DNA of 64,000 nucleotides from Ruminiclostridium cellulolyticum H10. GTDB lineage: Bacteria > Bacillota > Clostridia > Acetivibrionales > DSM-1351. The DNA lies in contig NC_011898.1 of assembly GCF_000022065.1 (NCBI RefSeq), positions 2,224,501 to 2,288,500 on the forward strand. The letters are read 5' to 3'. Shown in pieces: positions 29,604-37,444 of the stretch. The first letter of the stretch is position 1; the number at the start of each line of letters is the position of its first letter. The position numbers and the translations under genes are program-made. A model generated the notes under the pieces. The model searched no databases. It was not told the DNA's origin and saw only the letters and a list, made by a program, of their open reading frames with translations.

Positions 29604-30056
29604 TTACGATTTAATCATTTTATTGAATTTATTAACTATGTCCTCAGCAATTTTTTCAGCCCTGCAAACCATAATCAATGTGTCATCTCCGGCAATTGTA
29701 CCTAGTATTTCATTCCATTTTAGGGAGTCTATTGCCGAACCGGCAGCCTGAGCCATGCCTGACAGTGTCTTAACAACCACAATGTTATTGGCATAATCAC
29801 TGGAAACATAAGCTTCTGTAAGTATGGTAATCAATCTGTTTGAAACCTGCTTTTCCGACTGAGCAAAAGCAGAATACTTGTAGTATCCTTCAGGCGTCAT
29901 AACCTTAATGAGCCGGAGTTCCTTAATATCCCGGGAAACAGTTGCCTGAGTCACATCCATCCCCTGTTGCTTGAGCTTTTCTGCAAGCTCCTCCTGTGTT
30001 TCGATGGTATTATTCTCGATTATATCCAATATTTTTGCGTGTCTGTTATATTTCAT
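29604..30056 (-). CDS. argR: Arginine repressor ArgR/AhrC
   Basis: A 150-aa regulator. The N-terminal winged helix (about 1-70) includes TQEELAEKLKQQGMDVTQAT and SRDIKELRLIKV. The C-terminal domain forms the hexamer and binds arginine through the GTIAGDDTLIMVCR motif near residue 122-135. It represses arginine biosynthesis genes at ARG boxes. The gene overlaps nothing: nadK ends 3 nt upstream of its start and recN follows. Confidence 0.95.
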   Translation of the reverse strand: MKYNRHAKILDIIENNTIETQEELAEKLKQQGMDVTQATVSRDIKELRLIKVMTPEGYYKYSAFAQSEKQVSNRLITILTEAYVSSDYANNIVVVKTLSGMAQAAGSAIDSLKWNEILGTIAGDDTLIMVCRAEKIAEDIVNKFNKMIKS

Positions 30057-30058
30057 AT

Positions 30059-30919
30059 TTACTCCTCTTTTCTTTCGTAAATTTTACTTCTTAGTACGGT
30101 AAAGAAGTTTTTAGAATTTACTCTGATAATTTTCACAGTACTGTTTGCTTTCTCTATTTCCAGATAATCTCCACCTGTTATTTCAAGATTTTTTTGTCCG
30201 TCAACAGTTACAGTGGCCTTATGCTCAAATCCCTGTGAGACACATATTTTTATTTTTCTCATATCAGATGTAATCAATGCTCTTGATGACAAAATATGCG
30301 GACAAATAGGAGTTATTAGAATCAGTCCAGATGTAGGTTCAACTATCGGTCCGCCTGCCGACAAGGAATACGCTGTCGAACCTGTGGGAGTGGCCACTAC
30401 GATTCCGTCCCCTGGAAACATTTCAACAAGATTATTGTCTATATAAGTACTTAAGTGGAGTATTCTCGGAATACCACCTCTCGAAATCACAATATCATTT
30501 ATTGCAACATCCCGTGCAATAAGCTTCCCATCCTTGTACAGCTTAGAAGTTAGCATTATTCTATCTTCTAAACAGAACCTGTTATTCAATATATTTTCTA
30601 CTGCTTTATCTATTTCACCTTTTTCTACATCGGTTAAGAAACCCAGAGAACCAAGATTTATTCCCAACATAGGCAGCCCATACAAATATGCAGTTCTGGC
30701 AGTTCTCAAAAAGGTGCCATCTCCGCCGAGGCATATGACCATATCGCAATTATTACATATTTCAACTACTTGGTTGTCAATATCATCCATTTGAAAAGAA
30801 CCGTCGTAAGTTGGTAAAACAGCTTGTCCGCCGTGTTTCTCTATACTTTCAACCAATTGATTTGTATATTTTAAACCTTTGTCTTTCTCTCTGTTGGTTA
30901 TAACTCCGATTTTTTTCAT
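30059..30919 (-). CDS. nadK: NAD kinase
   Basis: A 286-aa ATP/polyphosphate-NAD kinase making NADP. The nucleotide motif GGDGT appears in VICLGGDGTFLRTART (about residues 62-77). The NAD-binding GDGIVVATPTGSTAYSLSAG follows near residue 168-187. ATG 30919 with GGAGGCTGACGAC is chosen over the longer frame at 30934. It sits in the tlyA-nadK-argR-recN block. Confidence 0.95.
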   Translation of the reverse strand: MKKIGVITNREKDKGLKYTNQLVESIEKHGGQAVLPTYDGSFQMDDIDNQVVEICNNCDMVICLGGDGTFLRTARTAYLYGLPMLGINLGSLGFLTDVEKGEIDKAVENILNNRFCLEDRIMLTSKLYKDGKLIARDVAINDIVISRGGIPRILHLSTYIDNNLVEMFPGDGIVVATPTGSTAYSLSAGGPIVEPTSGLILITPICPHILSSRALITSDMRKIKICVSQGFEHKATVTVDGQKNLEITGGDYLEIEKANSTVKIIRVNSKNFFTVLRSKIYERKEE

Positions 30920-30984
30920 GTCGTCAGCCTCCATAAGCCTGCAGTAACATAGTTGTTTTCTTCTTAATCACTTTATCAGATTAT

Positions 30985-31797
30985 TCAGCTTTTTACCAGT
31001 GTGCTGTGAGCTTCCGAAACTACACTTTCTACAAGTTTATCTATATCTTTTGAATCTTGATTTTCTGTTTTTGTAATATATAATAAATACTCGATATTGC
31101 CTTCCGGGCCTTTAATCGGTGAAAATGATAACTCTTTTACAAATAAATTTGCGGCAGTAACAAAATTTATTATATAATGTATAACTTCCTTATGAACGCC
31201 GCTGTCCCTTACAACACCGTGTTTGCCAACCTTTTCACGTCCTGCCTCGAACTGTGGTTTTATCAGACATACCAGCTCTGCCTCGTCCTTTAAAACTGCC
31301 AGAACTGCTGGTAATACCTTTGTGAGTGATATAAATGAGACATCGATGGAAGCAAAGTCCGACAAAAAACCTATGTCCTCAGGCTTAACATACCTGACAT
31401 TTGTACGTTCCATACATATAACCCTGGGGTCATTCCTCAGCTCCCATGCCAGCTGACCGTACCCGACATCAATAGCAACTACCTTCGCTGCACCGTTTTT
31501 TAGCATACAATCCGTAAAACCACCGGTTGATGCACCTATATCAAGACAGGTCTTATTTGCAAGATCTATATCAAAGTTACTGACAGCTTTAGCAAGCTTT
31601 AACCCTCCCCGGCTTACAAAAGGATTGAGATTTTCTCTTATTTCAATCGTACATTCGACAGGAACTTTTGTACCCGGCTTGTCCTCCCTGATCCCATCAA
31701 TCCATACAAGACCCGCCATAATGGCACTCTTGCATTTTTCACGACTCTCAAACAAGCCTTTGTTTACAAGTAGTACATCAAGTCTTTCCTTTTCCAA
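30985..31797 (-). CDS. tlyA: TlyA family rRNA (cytidine-2'-O)-methyltransferase
   Basis: A 270-aa protein: N-terminal S4 RNA-binding domain (ERLDVLLVNKGLFESREKCK, about 3-22), then an FtsJ/RrmJ-like SAM fold with LDIGASTGGFTDCMLKNGA (about 85-103). Early names call it hemolysin A; members methylate 16S/23S rRNA. The start is TTG with GGAGGGTATATT upstream. It is 21 nt downstream of dxs. Confidence 0.92.
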   Translation of the reverse strand: MEKERLDVLLVNKGLFESREKCKSAIMAGLVWIDGIREDKPGTKVPVECTIEIRENLNPFVSRGGLKLAKAVSNFDIDLANKTCLDIGASTGGFTDCMLKNGAAKVVAIDVGYGQLAWELRNDPRVICMERTNVRYVKPEDIGFLSDFASIDVSFISLTKVLPAVLAVLKDEAELVCLIKPQFEAGREKVGKHGVVRDSGVHKEVIHYIINFVTAANLFVKELSFSPIKGPEGNIEYLLYITKTENQDSKDIDKLVESVVSEAHSTLVKS

Positions 31798-31818: not shown

Positions 31819-33690
31819 TTATAGCTTGGTATTTTCTAACATATATATTATATCATTTGTTACTGAGTCTGCATCTAGTTTGAGTTTTTTTATTAACTCT
31901 TCTCTGGAACCTTGTGGTATGAACTGTTCGGGTAGGCCCTTTATGAGGATACGTGCCTTTAAATCAAGTCTGTTCAAGGTATCCAGAACTCTGCTTCCAA
32001 ACCCTCCTATAACACAATTTTCTTCCATTGTTACAATGTTTTTATATTTATTTGCACATTCCGTAATTAATTCTACATCTAGTGGCTTTATAAACCTTGC
32101 ACTGACAACTCCTGCATTTATACCCTTCTCTTTTAACTTTTCAGATACCTTAAAAGCTGTTTCAACCATTCTGCCCACAGCAAGTATACAGACATCCTGC
32201 CCCTCTTTCAGCACTGCCCCTTTTCCATTAACTAAAGGTACTTCATGTTTGATAATTTCCTTACCTCTGCCTCTTGGATACCTTATTGCTATAGGCCCGG
32301 TATGAATATTTATGGCATAATTAACCATTTCCCTGAGCTCATAATAATCAGCAGGGGCCATTATTGTAAAGTCAGGTATATGGTTCAGAAATGATATATC
32401 AAATTCTCCCTGATGTGTCTCTCCATCCTCACCTACAATCCCTGCTCTGTCTACACCTATAACTACATGTAGTTTTTGTAGTGCTACATCGTGTATCAAC
32501 TGATCATAGGCTCTTTGTAAAAAAGAGGAATAAATGGCAACAACAGGTATTATACCATTTATAGCCATTCCGGCCGCAGATGTAACTGCGTGTTGTTCAG
32601 CTATTCCCACATCAAAAAACCTTCTAGGAAACGTTGTACTAAATTTGGCTAACCCGGTCCCCTTTGTCATTGCTGCCGATATGGCGACAACTCTGTTATT
32701 CTTTTCGGCAGCCTCCAGAACAGCTTCCCCAAAGACCTCGGAATAGTCAGGCAGCCTCTTACCGTACGTTTCACCTGTCTCTATCTCAAATGGTGCTATT
32801 CCATGGAATCTGTCCGGACTTTCTTCTGCATAGGAATAACCCTTTCCCTTCTGAGTGCAAACGTGAATAAGTACGGGACCTTTTATTTTTTTGGCTGCCT
32901 GTAATGCTTTATTCAATTCATCCAGATTATGGCCATCTACAGGCCCATAATATCTATAACCCAGCTGTTCAAAAAACATTCCGGGTGTAATCAAATATTT
33001 TACTGTGCTTTTCAATTTTCGGACAGCCCTACGTGTTTTAGTACCAATATTTGGCATCTTGTCAAGAAAATTATCAATGTCCTCTTTAGTTTTTGTATAA
33101 AAAGGATCTGTACGAAGTTTGCTCAGATATCTGGACATACCTCCCACGTTCTGTGCTATGGACATCTCATTGTCATTAAGCACCACAATAAAGTTACTTG
33201 CCAGTCTTCCGGCATCATTTAAGGCTTCATAGGCCATTCCGCCCGTCATAGCTCCATCGCCTATTACAGCCATAACACTGTAATCTTCCTTTTTTATATC
33301 CCTTGCACGGGCAATACCCAACGCAGCAGAAATAGATGTACTGCTGTGTCCCGTATTAAAACAGTCGTGCAAGCTTTCGCAGGTTTTAGGAAACCCGGCC
33401 AACCCTCCCAATTTACGTAAGGTATCAAAATCCGCCTTTCGGCCTGTCAGTATCTTATGGACATATGATTGATGGCCTACGTCCCAAACAATCCTGTCCT
33501 TATTAGTATTAAAGTTACTATGAATGGCAAGTGTCAATTCAACTATACCAAGATTTGAGGCTAAATGCCCCCCGGTTTTCGAAACTTTATATATAAGAAA
33601 TGTCCTGATTTCTTCAGCAAGAACTTTTAACTGTTCAAGCTCTAATTTACCTATATCCTCAGGAAATTTTATGCTATCTAAATACCCCAC
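31819..33690 (-). CDS. dxs: 1-deoxy-D-xylulose-5-phosphate synthase
   Basis: A 623-aa thiamine-diphosphate enzyme, the first step of the MEP isoprenoid pathway (pyruvate + glyceraldehyde 3-phosphate to DXP). The ThDP motif is GDGAMTGGMAYEALNDAG near residue 144-161. The transketolase-family DRAGIVGEDGETHQGEFD is near residue 415-432, and the C-terminal domain ends with IKGLPEQFIPQGSREEL. The start is GTG with AAGGAG upstream. It follows the OapA-like gene with a 6-nt gap, so it is co-transcribed with it and the upstream structured RNA. Confidence 0.96.
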   Translation of the reverse strand: MGYLDSIKFPEDIGKLELEQLKVLAEEIRTFLIYKVSKTGGHLASNLGIVELTLAIHSNFNTNKDRIVWDVGHQSYVHKILTGRKADFDTLRKLGGLAGFPKTCESLHDCFNTGHSSTSISAALGIARARDIKKEDYSVMAVIGDGAMTGGMAYEALNDAGRLASNFIVVLNDNEMSIAQNVGGMSRYLSKLRTDPFYTKTKEDIDNFLDKMPNIGTKTRRAVRKLKSTVKYLITPGMFFEQLGYRYYGPVDGHNLDELNKALQAAKKIKGPVLIHVCTQKGKGYSYAEESPDRFHGIAPFEIETGETYGKRLPDYSEVFGEAVLEAAEKNNRVVAISAAMTKGTGLAKFSTTFPRRFFDVGIAEQHAVTSAAGMAINGIIPVVAIYSSFLQRAYDQLIHDVALQKLHVVIGVDRAGIVGEDGETHQGEFDISFLNHIPDFTIMAPADYYELREMVNYAINIHTGPIAIRYPRGRGKEIIKHEVPLVNGKGAVLKEGQDVCILAVGRMVETAFKVSEKLKEKGINAGVVSARFIKPLDVELITECANKYKNIVTMEENCVIGGFGSRVLDTLNRLDLKARILIKGLPEQFIPQGSREELIKKLKLDADSVTNDIIYMLENTKL

Positions 33691-33696
33691 TTGTAT

Positions 33697-34359
33697 TTAC
33701 TCCTTCTCAGTACCCTTGTTAGTGCATTTTTTATTATTATGCCATTTCTTTTTCGTTTTAAAATCAATTTTTCCAAAAAGAAATCTAATAACTACCGCTA
33801 CTTTATATATAATATAATTACTATTTTGCAATGCAATGGATTTACCTAGTGCTTTTCCGCCTACAGTGAGGGATGCAACCATAGCTGTAATACAAAGCCC
33901 AAAAATAGAATTTTGGGCACCAGTATTACCACCCGAAAATTTATATACTATAAAGGCAGCCGCTGTTCCACTTATTACACCGCAAATATCTCCTACAACA
34001 TCATTGCAGAAATTCGAAACCTTGTCAGCATTTCTGATTAGCTTTACGGCTTGTTTTGCACCGTACAGTTTCCTTGAAGCCATGGAATGAAATGGTGCCT
34101 CATCTGCAGCTGTTGCAGCAGTACCTATAAGGTCAAACAATATACTGATAATTATTATAACAAAAACAATAAGAAAAGAAACAACTGTGGTAGCATTACC
34201 TAATGTTTCATTTGAAAAAAAAGACATAAAAATAGAAATGAAAAAAGTGATAACTGTTATTAAAAGTGTCCAAACTCTTGTTTCTTTTTTAGAGCTAATT
34301 ACGTTAGCCCTGAATTTAACCTTCTTTTCATCGGCTGGATGCTTATAATAATCTTCCAA
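33697..34359 (-). CDS. oapA: OapA-like membrane protein, partner of OLE RNA
   Basis: A 220-aa integral membrane protein with four predicted helices (about residues 30-48, 58-80, 120-140, 150-168), the second running into DLIGTAATAADEAPFHSM, a segment resembling CNNM/DUF21 magnesium-transport proteins. The C-terminal tail is strongly basic (FKTKKKWHNNKKCTNKG). The start is TTG with CCGGAGGTTTGG upstream. In OLE-bearing bacteria the gene directly after the RNA encodes OapA, which binds OLE RNA and places it at the membrane; OLE loss affects Mg2+, cold and alcohol tolerance. Position, size and topology fit. Without the RNA this would be called only a hypothetical membrane protein. Confidence 0.8.
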   Translation of the reverse strand: MEDYYKHPADEKKVKFRANVISSKKETRVWTLLITVITFFISIFMSFFSNETLGNATTVVSFLIVFVIIIISILFDLIGTAATAADEAPFHSMASRKLYGAKQAVKLIRNADKVSNFCNDVVGDICGVISGTAAAFIVYKFSGGNTGAQNSIFGLCITAMVASLTVGGKALGKSIALQNSNYIIYKVAVVIRFLFGKIDFKTKKKWHNNKKCTNKGTEKE

Positions 34360-34381
34360 ACCAAACCTCCGGATTTAATAG

Positions 34382-35000
34382 AAAAACAGGTGGCAGTTTA
34401 TTGAGTAAATTTTGCGGCTTAGGTCAGGCAGGATTTCCCTGATATGTGCTGGAATGTCGCCAAACCAGTGGTTTCCCTTTAAACACATCACCGTACGTCT
34501 CCGTTTACGGGGCCTGATTACCACTTAGTCCACACTTTAATCCCCAATAAACCACTTATTAAGAACAGTCTAGGGGTTTTCCCCGGCAGTCAAAACGATT
34601 CCTAGCCTCTTTTGCAAAAAGGGTTTCAAATAGCAATAATGCTTATATATCGGCCAATACATGAAGCATCTGATCCATTATCCACCTGATTTCACTCAAG
34701 GCAGGCTACACTGTTCACAGCCATCATAAAGACACCGCATAACAGGTTTAATCCCTTTTCGTAGTCGAGGTGGCAAGCAAAAGCTTGACTTTTCTTCCAC
34801 AAGTAAGGGTCTCCACGGAAAAGGGGTCCACGCCCGCATGCCATTGCGGATCGCCCCTAAGCCTTAACTCCCAGCATCAACCCACCACTGGGCGTAACAA
34901 GCCGACACAAGGAACTTCATCGATATGCCCTTAAACGGATTTTTAGGCCCGTCTTCAGAATCGTCAGTACTGACTAGAATACTGCGCCACCCTGTTTTTT
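34382..35000 (-). ncRNA. ole: OLE-type large structured non-coding RNA
   Basis: About 620 nt with no usable ORF, clearly richer in G and C than its flanks, between ispA and the oapA-like gene. On the minus strand the 5' AACAGGGTGGCGCAG pairs with the 3' CTGCCACCTGTT (two bulges), closing the whole RNA in one terminal stem; the 3' side runs into T residues. Internal hairpins include GGGG-AAAA-CCCC and CAAGC-TTTT-GCTTG. OLE RNAs are about 600 nt, lie in the nusB-xse-ispA-dxs-recN operon and are followed by oapA, exactly as here. They form membrane-bound ribonucleoprotein complexes. The assignment rests on size, context and fold; I could not align a covariance model. Confidence 0.85.
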
Positions 35001-35046
35001 TGTCAATAGTAATAATGTAAGATAACAAAAATGTCATCGAGACAAC

Positions 35047-35101: not shown

Positions 35102-35986
35102 TTATCTGTCCCTTACAGTCAATGATAATGCAAGTTCTTTCATAAACTGTCCCTTATCGCCGAAGGCATCCAGACAGGAAATACCTTCTTGAGTTACTGT
35201 TTGCAGTAGCTTTTTGGATTCTTCAAGTCCATACATGGTTACATAAGTTGATTTATGGCATGAAGAATCATTACCCGGGTTCTTACCCATGTTTTCAACG
35301 GTTCCTTCGATGTCCAGGATATCGTCCTTTATCTGAAAAGCTAATCCCAAATTTGCAGCATATCCTGACAAAAGCTCAAATTCCTTTTTATCGGCACCGC
35401 ATATTACTGCCGCAGCTTCCACCGGGGCTTTTATCAACGCACCTGTTTTTAGTCTGTGCATTGTTTTGAGTCTATCACTTTCAATGGTTTTTTCTTCTGA
35501 TTGAAGATCAATTACCTGACCTCCAACCATCCCTAATGCCCCTGCATACTTCGCGACTATTCCGGCAGCCCGCATTTTTTCAATATTCCTTGATTCAACC
35601 GCATCATTAATCATTATCTCATAAGCCATATTCAATAATCCATCTCCGGCAAGTATTGCCATGGCTTCTCCGAATACCTTATGGTTCGTCAGCTTACCCC
35701 TTCTATAATCATCATTATCCATAGCCGGCAAATCATCATGTATCAGTGAATATGTATGGATCATTTCAATCGCACAGCCAAAATTAATTACTTCATCAAA
35801 AGGCTTATCAAACATTTCAGCAACAGCAAGTGCCAATACAGGCCTCAATCTCTTGCCTCCGGCTAAAAGACTGTAGGACATTGCTTGCTCTATATCAAGA
35901 CAGTATTCGTCTACTTCCGGAATAATATTATGAAGCCTCTCTTCAATCATATTCACATATATATTGTTTTTTTCCTTAAAATTCAT
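35102..35986 (-). CDS. ispA: Polyprenyl synthetase (farnesyl/geranylgeranyl diphosphate synthase)
   Basis: A 294-aa trans-prenyltransferase condensing IPP with allylic diphosphates. The first aspartate-rich motif is in LIHDDLPAMDNDDYRRG (about residues 82-98) and the second in FQIKDDILDIEG (about 222-233). It is within the size range for short-chain FPP synthases. CGGAGGGAAAT precedes the ATG. It is 14 nt downstream of xseB, as in most Firmicutes, and precedes the OLE RNA. Confidence 0.94.
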   Translation of the reverse strand: MNFKEKNNIYVNMIEERLHNIIPEVDEYCLDIEQAMSYSLLAGGKRLRPVLALAVAEMFDKPFDEVINFGCAIEMIHTYSLIHDDLPAMDNDDYRRGKLTNHKVFGEAMAILAGDGLLNMAYEIMINDAVESRNIEKMRAAGIVAKYAGALGMVGGQVIDLQSEEKTIESDRLKTMHRLKTGALIKAPVEAAAVICGADKKEFELLSGYAANLGLAFQIKDDILDIEGTVENMGKNPGNDSSCHKSTYVTMYGLEESKKLLQTVTQEGISCLDAFGDKGQFMKELALSLTVRDR

Positions 35987-36000
35987 ATTTCCCTCCGAAT

Positions 36001-36237
36001 TCAGATGTTAAAATCCTTTTCTTCAAAATTATCCTCTTCATCCTTGATTAGCATTGTTATTTGCTTCTCCGCTTCATCAAGCCTGGCAGCACAATACCTT
36101 GAAAGCTCTATTCCCTGCTGGAAGCTGGTAATGGACTCCTCAAGTGTAGCTTCACCCTTTTCAAGCTTCAATACAATTTGCTCAAGTTCCGCTATAGCCT
36201 CTTCAAAGCTTTTTTCAATTTTAACAGTTTTACTCAT
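36001..36237 (-). CDS. xseB: Exodeoxyribonuclease VII small subunit
   Basis: A 78-aa helical protein with the XseB core SFEEAIAELEQIVLKLEKGE and the repeat-like SFQQGIELSRYCAARLDEAE. It forms a complex with several copies per XseA for single-strand DNA degradation. The ATG overlaps the 3' end of xseA by 8 nt, giving coupled translation. An acidic tail (EEDNFEEKDFNI) is present. Confidence 0.95.
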   Translation of the reverse strand: MSKTVKIEKSFEEAIAELEQIVLKLEKGEATLEESITSFQQGIELSRYCAARLDEAEKQITMLIKDEEDNFEEKDFNI

Positions 36238-37444
36238 AAATTTTTCCCTCTCTTACAGATATTACGTCACATTCTGCTAATCCGTCATTCATCAATATTT
36301 CCAACTTATCTCCTATGTTAATCTGTTTTACGTTATTTACTACATAGCCTTGAGGATTTTTTACAAGACTATACCCACGTTCTAATATTTTCAAAGGACT
36401 CAAGGCATCTAACTTACCTGCAAGCATACCAAATTGAGATTTCTTGTCTTTTATAATTGTTTGGTTCTCTCTGACCATACTTTTAGTTAAATTGTCAAGT
36501 GTCTGTCTTTGCTGGTTTACCCTGTCATAGGGCTGTGCAAAAAATGGCCTTGCATTTAATTTTTGCAGCTGGTTCTTCAACGTTGTCACTTTTTTTGCAA
36601 GAGAACTTTTCATTCTCATGTTGTAGCTTTCCAATTTATACAAAAGAACCTCCATGTCAGGAACTGCAAGTTCAGCTGCTGCTGAAGGAGTCGGTGCCCG
36701 CATATCCGATACAAAGTCACATATAGTAAAGTCTGTTTCGTGTCCAACGGCAGATATAACAGGAATATTTGATGCATATATGCTCCTGGCAACAATTTCC
36801 TCATTGAATGCCCACAGCTCTTCCAAAGAGCCGCCACCTCTTGCTACAATAATTACATCAACCTTGTTCTGCTCATTAAGACACTTTATTGCTTCCGCTA
36901 TCTGTCCTGCAGCCTGTTGACCCTGAACAGCTACAGGATACAATACCAGCTTCATTTTGCTGTTTCTCCTGTAGGTAACATTTATGATATCCCTTATAAC
37001 CGCACCTGTGGATGAGGTAACAACGCCGATACTTCCGGGCAGTACAGGTATCTTTTTCTTGTTTTCCGGGTCAAAAAGGCCCTCCCGCTGGAGTTTCTCT
37101 TTCAACTGTTCAAATGCAATATGGAGAGCCCCCACTCCATCGGGCTGCATACTGCTTGCATACAGCTGATACTGCCCGTCTCTTTCAAAAACTGAAATAT
37201 AACCAGAAACTATCACCTTCATGCCATTTTCTGGAGAGAACCTCAATGAAACCGCCTGTGATCTGAACATAACGCATTTGAGCAGGCTGTTTTTGTCCTT
37301 TATTGTAAAATACATATGACCTGTATAATGGTGCTTGAAGTTGGATATTTCACCCCGAATGGACACATCCGATAGTATTATGTCATTTGATACAAGCTGC
37401 TTTATATAATTATTTATGTCCGAAACCGAATAAACTCTGTTCAT
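36230..37444 (-). CDS. xseA: Exodeoxyribonuclease VII large subunit
   Basis: A 404-aa nuclease subunit. An N-terminal OB-fold is followed by the catalytic domain with VARGGGSLEELWAFNEE (about residues 201-217) and GHETDFTICDFVSD. A coiled-coil arm (about 260-345) then leads to a C-terminal beta segment ending ERGYSLVKNPQG and beyond. It is near the usual 400-450 aa. It lies between nusB and xseB. Confidence 0.95.
   Translation of the reverse strand: MNRVYSVSDINNYIKQLVSNDIILSDVSIRGEISNFKHHYTGHMYFTIKDKNSLLKCVMFRSQAVSLRFSPENGMKVIVSGYISVFERDGQYQLYASSMQPDGVGALHIAFEQLKEKLQREGLFDPENKKKIPVLPGSIGVVTSSTGAVIRDIINVTYRRNSKMKLVLYPVAVQGQQAAGQIAEAIKCLNEQNKVDVIIVARGGGSLEELWAFNEEIVARSIYASNIPVISAVGHETDFTICDFVSDMRAPTPSAAAELAVPDMEVLLYKLESYNMRMKSSLAKKVTTLKNQLQKLNARPFFAQPYDRVNQQRQTLDNLTKSMVRENQTIIKDKKSQFGMLAGKLDALSPLKILERGYSLVKNPQGYVVNNVKQINIGDKLEILMNDGLAECDVISVREGKIYE

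Follow-up and report, generated by a model that had tools for sequence, protein, structure and literature searches.

The OapA ortholog beside the OLE RNA of Ruminiclostridium cellulolyticum H10 and its apparently rebuilt metal site

Among conserved bacterial RNAs for which no biochemical function is known, OLE RNA is one of the largest; its most faithful partner is the membrane protein OapA. The OapA of Halalkalibacterium halodurans binds OLE RNA, with at least two protein molecules per RNA, and brings the RNA to the membrane; knock-out strains tolerate Mg2+, cold and alcohols poorly (PMC11332333; PMC12265935; also PMC9723947, PMC10898510, PMC12054373). A CNNM-like fold has been reported for the H. 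halodurans protein, the DxxxD motif and the lack of the CNNM proline have been named as features of OapA, and it has been proposed in print that OLE RNA occupies the regulatory place of CBS and CorC domains (PMC11332333). Here we describe the oapA gene of R. cellulolyticum H10 and its OLE RNA, located in a window of 64,000 nt (NC_011898.1, positions 2,224,501 to 2,288,500). The finding in the window itself is already known in kind, because the OLE system, the kinship of OapA with CNNM proteins and the idea that OLE replaces CBS/CorC domains have been published (PMC11332333); the interest beyond it lies in a residue map of the protein and in OLE loci that lack OapA. In the literature searched, no account of an OLE RNA in cellulolyticum was found, and a single paper came up for OLE RNA lacking OapA.

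Identity of the protein encoded after OLE

The OLE RNA of the window is the single match in the whole genome (4,068,724 bases, one contig) and is followed, 14 nt after its 3′ end, by the TTG start of a minus-strand open reading frame (ORF) of 220 residues (Table 1). The stop codon of this ORF lies 6 nt from the GTG start of dxs, the spacing given in a preliminary description of this DNA, which had also recognized a four-helix protein; the structure model presented below indeed contains four long helices. By description, the product resembles the OapA of H. halodurans in that its gene directly follows ole and neighbors dxs, and in having four transmembrane helices, a DxxxD motif (D120-x3-D124), a CNNM-like core and no CNNM proline. 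A scan against NCBIfam gave no match near any cut-off.

Two separate searches, one for OLE and one for OapA, picked out an identical set of 53 among 60 related genomes and missed the same remaining seven; in 51 of these 53 genomes OLE and OapA share a contig (two tables compared by eye). Within a sample of 398 genomes from the phylum, the searches detected OapA in 289 genomes and OLE in 284, with both in 282, OapA only in seven, OLE only in two and neither in 107 (lists compared by eye, with totals that agree); OLE is therefore common in the phylum. Four of the OapA-only genomes have oapA near a contig end (G172, G269, G391, G414), two are 75 and 63 % complete (G295 and G319, respectively), and one has no match to OLE and no more than a remnant of OapA (G321). 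In G364, one of the two OLE-only genomes, some bases are masked and the contig end carries a weak OapA-like start; G389, which is discussed below, is therefore the only one of the 398 that stands as OLE-only.

Further loci, referred to as named loci, were fetched with the peptide patterns CNDV[VI]GDI and ExPFH[AS]MAS; they are the best 80 of more than 580, span Clostridia and Bacilli, and include R. cellobioparum and R. sufflavum. In 76 of these 80 loci, nhmmer matched OLE upstream of oapA and in the same orientation, some of the matches being cut by a contig edge. The other four comprise two with the 3′ end of OLE at the contig edge (cmscan), one whose contig starts inside oapA, and L116. Gene dxs lies downstream of oapA in 74 of the 80, at no more than 400 nt from the oapA match in 73. 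The exceptional L116 (1-505) showed no detectable OLE in the ca. 500 nt preceding oapA, and its contig begins in an apparent transposase end, presumably of the IS3 type.

The assignment of the gene after OLE to OapA, made in the preliminary description, is supported by position, co-occurrence, the DxxxD motif and the fold, all of which agree; moreover, no unrelated membrane family provided a closer match, and OLE is present at this place in relatives. The protein is an ordinary OapA ortholog: its identity as the membrane partner of OLE RNA is virtually certain, its function as such is very probable, and we have high confidence in identity and role taken jointly.

Two genomes depart from the usual arrangement. 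In G073 (L189, L197, L199), the OLE match is weak (169.9 bits) and oapA is in pieces with stops, and the two have apparently decayed together. In G007, a single-contig genome of the same genus, the frame of oapA is interrupted at an A-rich run close to the start and OLE is intact (L006, 542.6 bits); this may be a sequencing error or a real loss.

A CNNM-like fold with a candidate rebuilt metal site

A structure model of the protein, built from an alignment of 70 diverse OapAs, reached a mean pLDDT (predicted local distance difference test) of 84.2 and a pTM (predicted template modeling score) of 0.73; an earlier model, for which 26 close sequences had been used, was set aside because of its low pLDDT of 54.7. 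The model has four long helices (residues 24–55, 58–84, 111–142 and 148–178) and another one at 180–196, which, as modeled, we would equate with the juxtamembrane helix of CorB. Alignment with VIA-align gave a Z of 13.2 to MtCorB (7m1t), with a root-mean-square deviation of 2.7 over 132 residues, and the top four rows were all CNNM/CorB (Z of 13.2, 12.5, 12.1 and 11.6), the next row being unrelated, with a Z of 8.6. The rows at or below 8.6 (SMAC, Fluc, bestrophin and others) were rejected as common helical arrangements. Foldseek alone gave a best E of 1.3e-2, with a probability of 1.00. The preliminary description had called the segment DLIGTAATAADEAPFHSM (residues 76–93) CNNM/DUF21-like, and this likeness is real, though below the Pfam cut-off: the match to PF01595 has an E of 8.4e-6 and 26.0 bits, against a gathering threshold of 28.4 bits, which is exceeded at the OapA places of four relatives (G026, G035, G040, G041). 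A comparison of OapA with CNNM domains by hhalign gave an E of 4e-5 and a probability of 70 %. The fold reported for the H. halodurans protein is thus obtained here for another species.

The part of OapA that resembles CNNM comprises residues 56–195, and the first helix (24–55) is therefore an addition. OapA shares with MpfA, CorB and CorC the transmembrane fold, and differs from them in this extra N-terminal helix and in that neither CBS nor CorC_HlyC was found among the matches of its 220 residues up to an E of 10. A profile search of the Protein Data Bank (PDB) with an order-level OapA alignment returned, on the basic N-terminal stretch, designed knot proteins only, and not CorB; these were discarded because they are a composition match.

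The Mg2+ ligands of MtCorB are S21, S25, S71 (Asn in bacteria) and E111, with backbone contacts from S21 and G110, and its pi-helix residues are P114 and K115 (PMC8242095). We aligned this site remotely with OapA in 20 resamplings, each of them comparing the window protein plus 60 other OapAs with MtCorB plus 20 of 30 CNNM domains (hhalign, E of 1.3e-6 to 9.8e-5); of the 30 CNNM loci, L143 was left out because it had no match to the domain-finding motif. In all 20, S25 aligned to D76, E111 to K169, P114 to G172 and K115 to K173. In comparison with CorB, then, this remote alignment gives OapA a Lys for the ligand Glu, an Asp for the ligand Ser and a Gly for the pi-helix Pro, which is the missing CNNM proline, and keeps the conserved Gly and Lys that flank the pi-helix position of the third helix of CorB (G110/K115 on G168/K173). 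Residue 172 is Gly in 71 and Ala in nine of 80 sequences. The pairing of E111 with K169, first drawn from an alignment by eye, was upheld by the profile alignment. The by-eye alignment had also placed DxxxD on the Ser/Asn ligand of CorB; this was rejected, since the profile alignment pairs S71 with V122 or with a gap and does not fix the placing. The main text of PMC11332333 (mSphere), leaving aside its Fig. S5, was not found to contain the Glu-to-Lys mapping.

Eight residues, D76, D120, G123, D124, S130, G131, K169 and K173, are the same in all 80 sequences compared (the window protein and 79 named loci; L089, which is cut off, was excluded). Part of the invariance of CNDVxGD among the named loci follows from the peptide patterns used to fetch them, and two differently selected sets of OapAs were therefore used, with a possible overlap in species with the named loci. 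One was selected with a hidden Markov model (HMM), and the other through OLE, from 32 loci of which three (L206, L218 and L215) have no OapA ORF. The same eight residues, with both Asp of the DxxxD motif, were kept in 29/29 HMM-selected and 29/29 OLE-selected proteins; G79, F90, N119, V121, T165, G167 and G168 were not strictly invariant in these sets. Judged from sequence comparison, the metal site of OapA looks rebuilt, with the fold kept and, at the place of the Mg2+ bound by CorB, an Asp-Lys arrangement inside the membrane.

The C-terminal tail is basic, as the preliminary description had it, with a net charge of +6 over the last 25 residues, and those of 78 of the 80 named OapAs are net positive (median net charge of +5, median length of 14), with no conserved sequence. 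Basic cytosolic ends are common in membrane proteins, and the tail is for this reason a weak argument for the contact with RNA to which it had been thought suited; it is also among the least conserved parts of the protein, the invariant residues being in or at the membrane core. The tails of OapA may touch RNA, yet they do not define the family. Residues K97, R109 and K113, a candidate basic cluster of the cytosolic face, are Lys or Arg in 79, 78 and 73 of 80 OapAs, respectively. The N-terminal HPADEKKVKFR is conserved in the order of the window organism and was not seen among the Bacilli OapAs listed, whose chosen starts are near the first transmembrane helix.

A plausible mechanism would start from an OapA dimer that forms a CNNM-like transmembrane body, on which OLE RNA would dock via basic cytosolic faces. 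The RNA would stand where the CBS and CorC domains sit in MpfA and CorB, and it would sense and gate, acting on a transmembrane body whose site has an altered charge. The Asp-Lys pair of OapA would open and close, either as an ion-responsive switch or as a proton- or cation-coupled exchanger. We put this role for OapA forward tentatively, as possible rather than probable, and we think it more likely than that of an ordinary CNNM Mg2+ carrier or of a passive anchor, because the metal site looks rebuilt (Glu to Lys, Ser to Asp, and pi-helix Pro to Gly, or to Ala in some).

Several points weigh against this picture of OapA. The deletion phenotype under high Mg2+ (quoted in PMC11332333) and an unpublished rescue with the MpfA family (quoted in PMC12265935) favor ordinary divalent transport. 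The map of the site is a remote alignment, with hhalign probabilities of 58–91 % across resamplings; CorB S71 was on V122 in 11 of these and on a gap in nine, so that DxxxD merely brackets it; and the structural aligner ends with residue 195 on 138 and hhalign with 196 on 138, which makes a shift of one residue in the fourth transmembrane helix possible. A note of VIA-align warns that a Z below about 13 may be a chance arrangement in helical bundles; we trust the fold match because the top four rows are all CNNM and the sequence profiles agree. Additionally, OapA may not always be needed for the role of OLE, because three genomes keep OLE without oapA at the locus (see below).

The published alternative, in which OapA is a working CNNM-type exporter of Mg2+ (or another divalent) gated by OLE instead of CBS domains, seems to us somewhat unlikely. 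It has in its favor the predicted fold, which matches CNNM, the anticorrelation with MpfA together with the Mg2+ sensitivity of knock-outs (PMC11332333), and the rescue between OapA and MpfA systems, quoted as unpublished (PMC12265935). Nevertheless, a strong CNNM/MpfA match is also present in 34 of the 53 OLE-bearing relatives, versus three of the seven without OLE, and replacement is thus not strict here; on these counts, a replacement of MpfA by OapA in this lineage was rejected. The genome of the window itself encodes one true MpfA elsewhere (464 residues, CNNM with 174.1 bits, CBS and CorC_HlyC). We give still less credit to OapA being a mere membrane anchor for OLE RNA, with a CNNM-like fold that is an inherited scaffold and no ion handling: the CNNM ligand Glu and the pi-helix Pro are apparently gone (K169, G172) and no regulatory domain was found in its 220 residues, which favors an anchor, but the strictest conservation is on charged or small residues of the core (D76, D120, D124, K169, K173) and not on the tails, which is hard to explain in this way. 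Lastly, a CNNM/MpfA-family protein unrelated to OLE and placed here by chance, as the PF01595 match could suggest, is extremely improbable, since that match is below threshold, CBS and CorC domains were not found, the genuine MpfA is encoded elsewhere and, decisively, OLE and OapA co-occur, both in the named loci of Clostridia and Bacilli and in the same 53 relatives. The map of the five core residues makes it testable whether OapA is a transporter or sensor, as in the switch or exchanger proposed here, or an anchor.

OLE RNA loci without OapA

Three genomes from two families (G389, G456 and G458; loci L184, L206 and L218, respectively) contain, in the customary ispA-OLE-dxs context, an intact OLE that is not followed by oapA at the locus. 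The OLE of G389, a genome that is 99 % complete, is full length (475.3 bits), and dxs begins 125 to 190 nt later, depending on the start chosen; there is no room for oapA. The order determined by tblastn in this genome is xseA, ispA, OLE, dxs, tlyA and argR, with ORFs similar to xseB and to the NAD kinase gene in between. We searched two OapA alignments against the G389 genome and found no OapA. The genome was also scanned as 133 pieces that include 2,243,244 of its 2,243,508 bases (all but 264) in 47 contigs; among their ORFs of at least 50 codons, the best match to the OapA profile had an E of 1.5, which is noise. The absence of OapA thus refers to a genome-wide scan for G389 and to the locus for G456 and G458, and a strongly diverged OapA could escape the profile. 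The scan of G389 did find relatives of the OLE-associated proteins OapB (5.9e-15) and OapC (2.4e-14), as well as a diverged CNNM-CBS-CorC protein (2.9e-35 to the MpfA of the window organism; Pfam CNNM, 43.3 bits). This CNNM-type protein (L262:13996-15357) is without the usual GExxPK-like signature, reading VQILPER by eye.

OLE is present in 53 of 60 relatives of G389; the loci of 30 of these 53, including G389, were viewed, and OapA adjoins OLE in 26 of the other 29. In G458, which belongs to another family than G389, dxs is ca. 215 nt after OLE. In G456, from the family of G389, OLE is followed by a terminator-like hairpin, with −21.7 kcal/mol over 40 nt, and then, as judged by eye, by a start resembling that of the G389 dxs within the last 175 nt of the contig. 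At L215 the contig stops at OLE.

The OapA-less OLEs of G389, G456 and G458 are mutually 88, 78 and 76 % identical. Six OapA-bearing OLEs share 270 invariant columns, of which the OapA-less RNAs keep 264, 264 and 261, respectively. In a leave-one-out control among the six, five sequences at a time have 274 to 310 invariant columns, and the omitted one matches 270 of these (87 to 99 %); overall, OapA-bearing OLEs are no better conserved on the same columns than the three without OapA. By this measure the three OapA-less RNAs are not decaying. It is reasonably probable that OLE RNA can persist under full constraint without OapA; OLE would then have a function independent of OapA, or another membrane protein would be in its place. 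If true, this would contradict the published view of OapA as indispensable.

Other partners and neighboring genes

The preliminary description had noted that OapB and OapC, other reported partners of OLE, are outside the window, and relatives of both (YbzG and YbxF) are indeed encoded elsewhere in the genome, unlinked to the ole locus. The OapB relative (L040:7729-8010, 93 residues) has a phmmer E of 3.3e-10 to 7k9b, OLE-associated protein B, and the relative of YbxF/OapC (L041:3220-3462, 80 residues) one of 5.6e-14 to 4lck. A search of the organism's own genome with Pfam KOW did not list the OapB relative; it was recognized from the ORFs in the ribosomal gene cluster, before the comparison with 7k9b confirmed it, and it had no NCBIfam match at an E of 1e-10. 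We take the ORFs flanking the OapB relative to be map and infA, and those flanking the OapC relative to be rpoC and rpsL. With OapB- and OapC-like proteins encoded in the genome, the OLE system is not two-part here, contrary to what the preliminary description had proposed for the RNA and OapA. Both proteins occur in some species also without OLE (PMC11332333).

OLE and oapA are part of a run of minus-strand genes, in the order xseA, xseB, ispA, OLE RNA, oapA, dxs, tlyA, NAD kinase and argR (Table 1), whose names were assigned from NCBIfam matches.

Table 1. Features of the ole-oapA gene run, in coordinates of the window.
Feature	Position	Strand	Evidence
argR, arginine repressor	29604..30056	-	NF001680, 211.2 bits
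NAD kinase	30059..30934	-	NCBIfam models up to 238.4 bits, below curated cut-offs
tlyA family rRNA methyltransferase, downstream of dxs	30985..31797	-	TIGR00478, 282.2 bits
dxs	31819..33690	-	TIGR00204, 809 bits
oapA, 220-residue OapA ortholog	33697..34359	-	ORF; PF01595, E 8.4e-6, below cut-off
GGAGG ribosome-binding site of oapA	34366..34370	-	Sequence; six bases 5′ of the TTG start
OLE RNA, full length	34374..35006	-	RF01071, 545.6 bits (gathering threshold 50 bits), end to end (model 1-616/616)
ispA-type farnesyl diphosphate synthase, upstream of OLE	35102..35986	-	NF045485, 347.9 bits
xseB, exodeoxyribonuclease VII small subunit	36001..36237	-	TIGR01280, 76.8 bits
xseA, exodeoxyribonuclease VII large subunit	36230..37444	-	TIGR00237, 507.8 bits

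The adjacency to dxs had also been taken as a hint of a link to isoprenoid or membrane physiology; the adjacency stands, and what speaks for the isoprenoid link here is gene order only. Physical and functional links of ArgR to OLE RNA are mentioned in PMC10898510, and argR shares the gene run with OLE and oapA.
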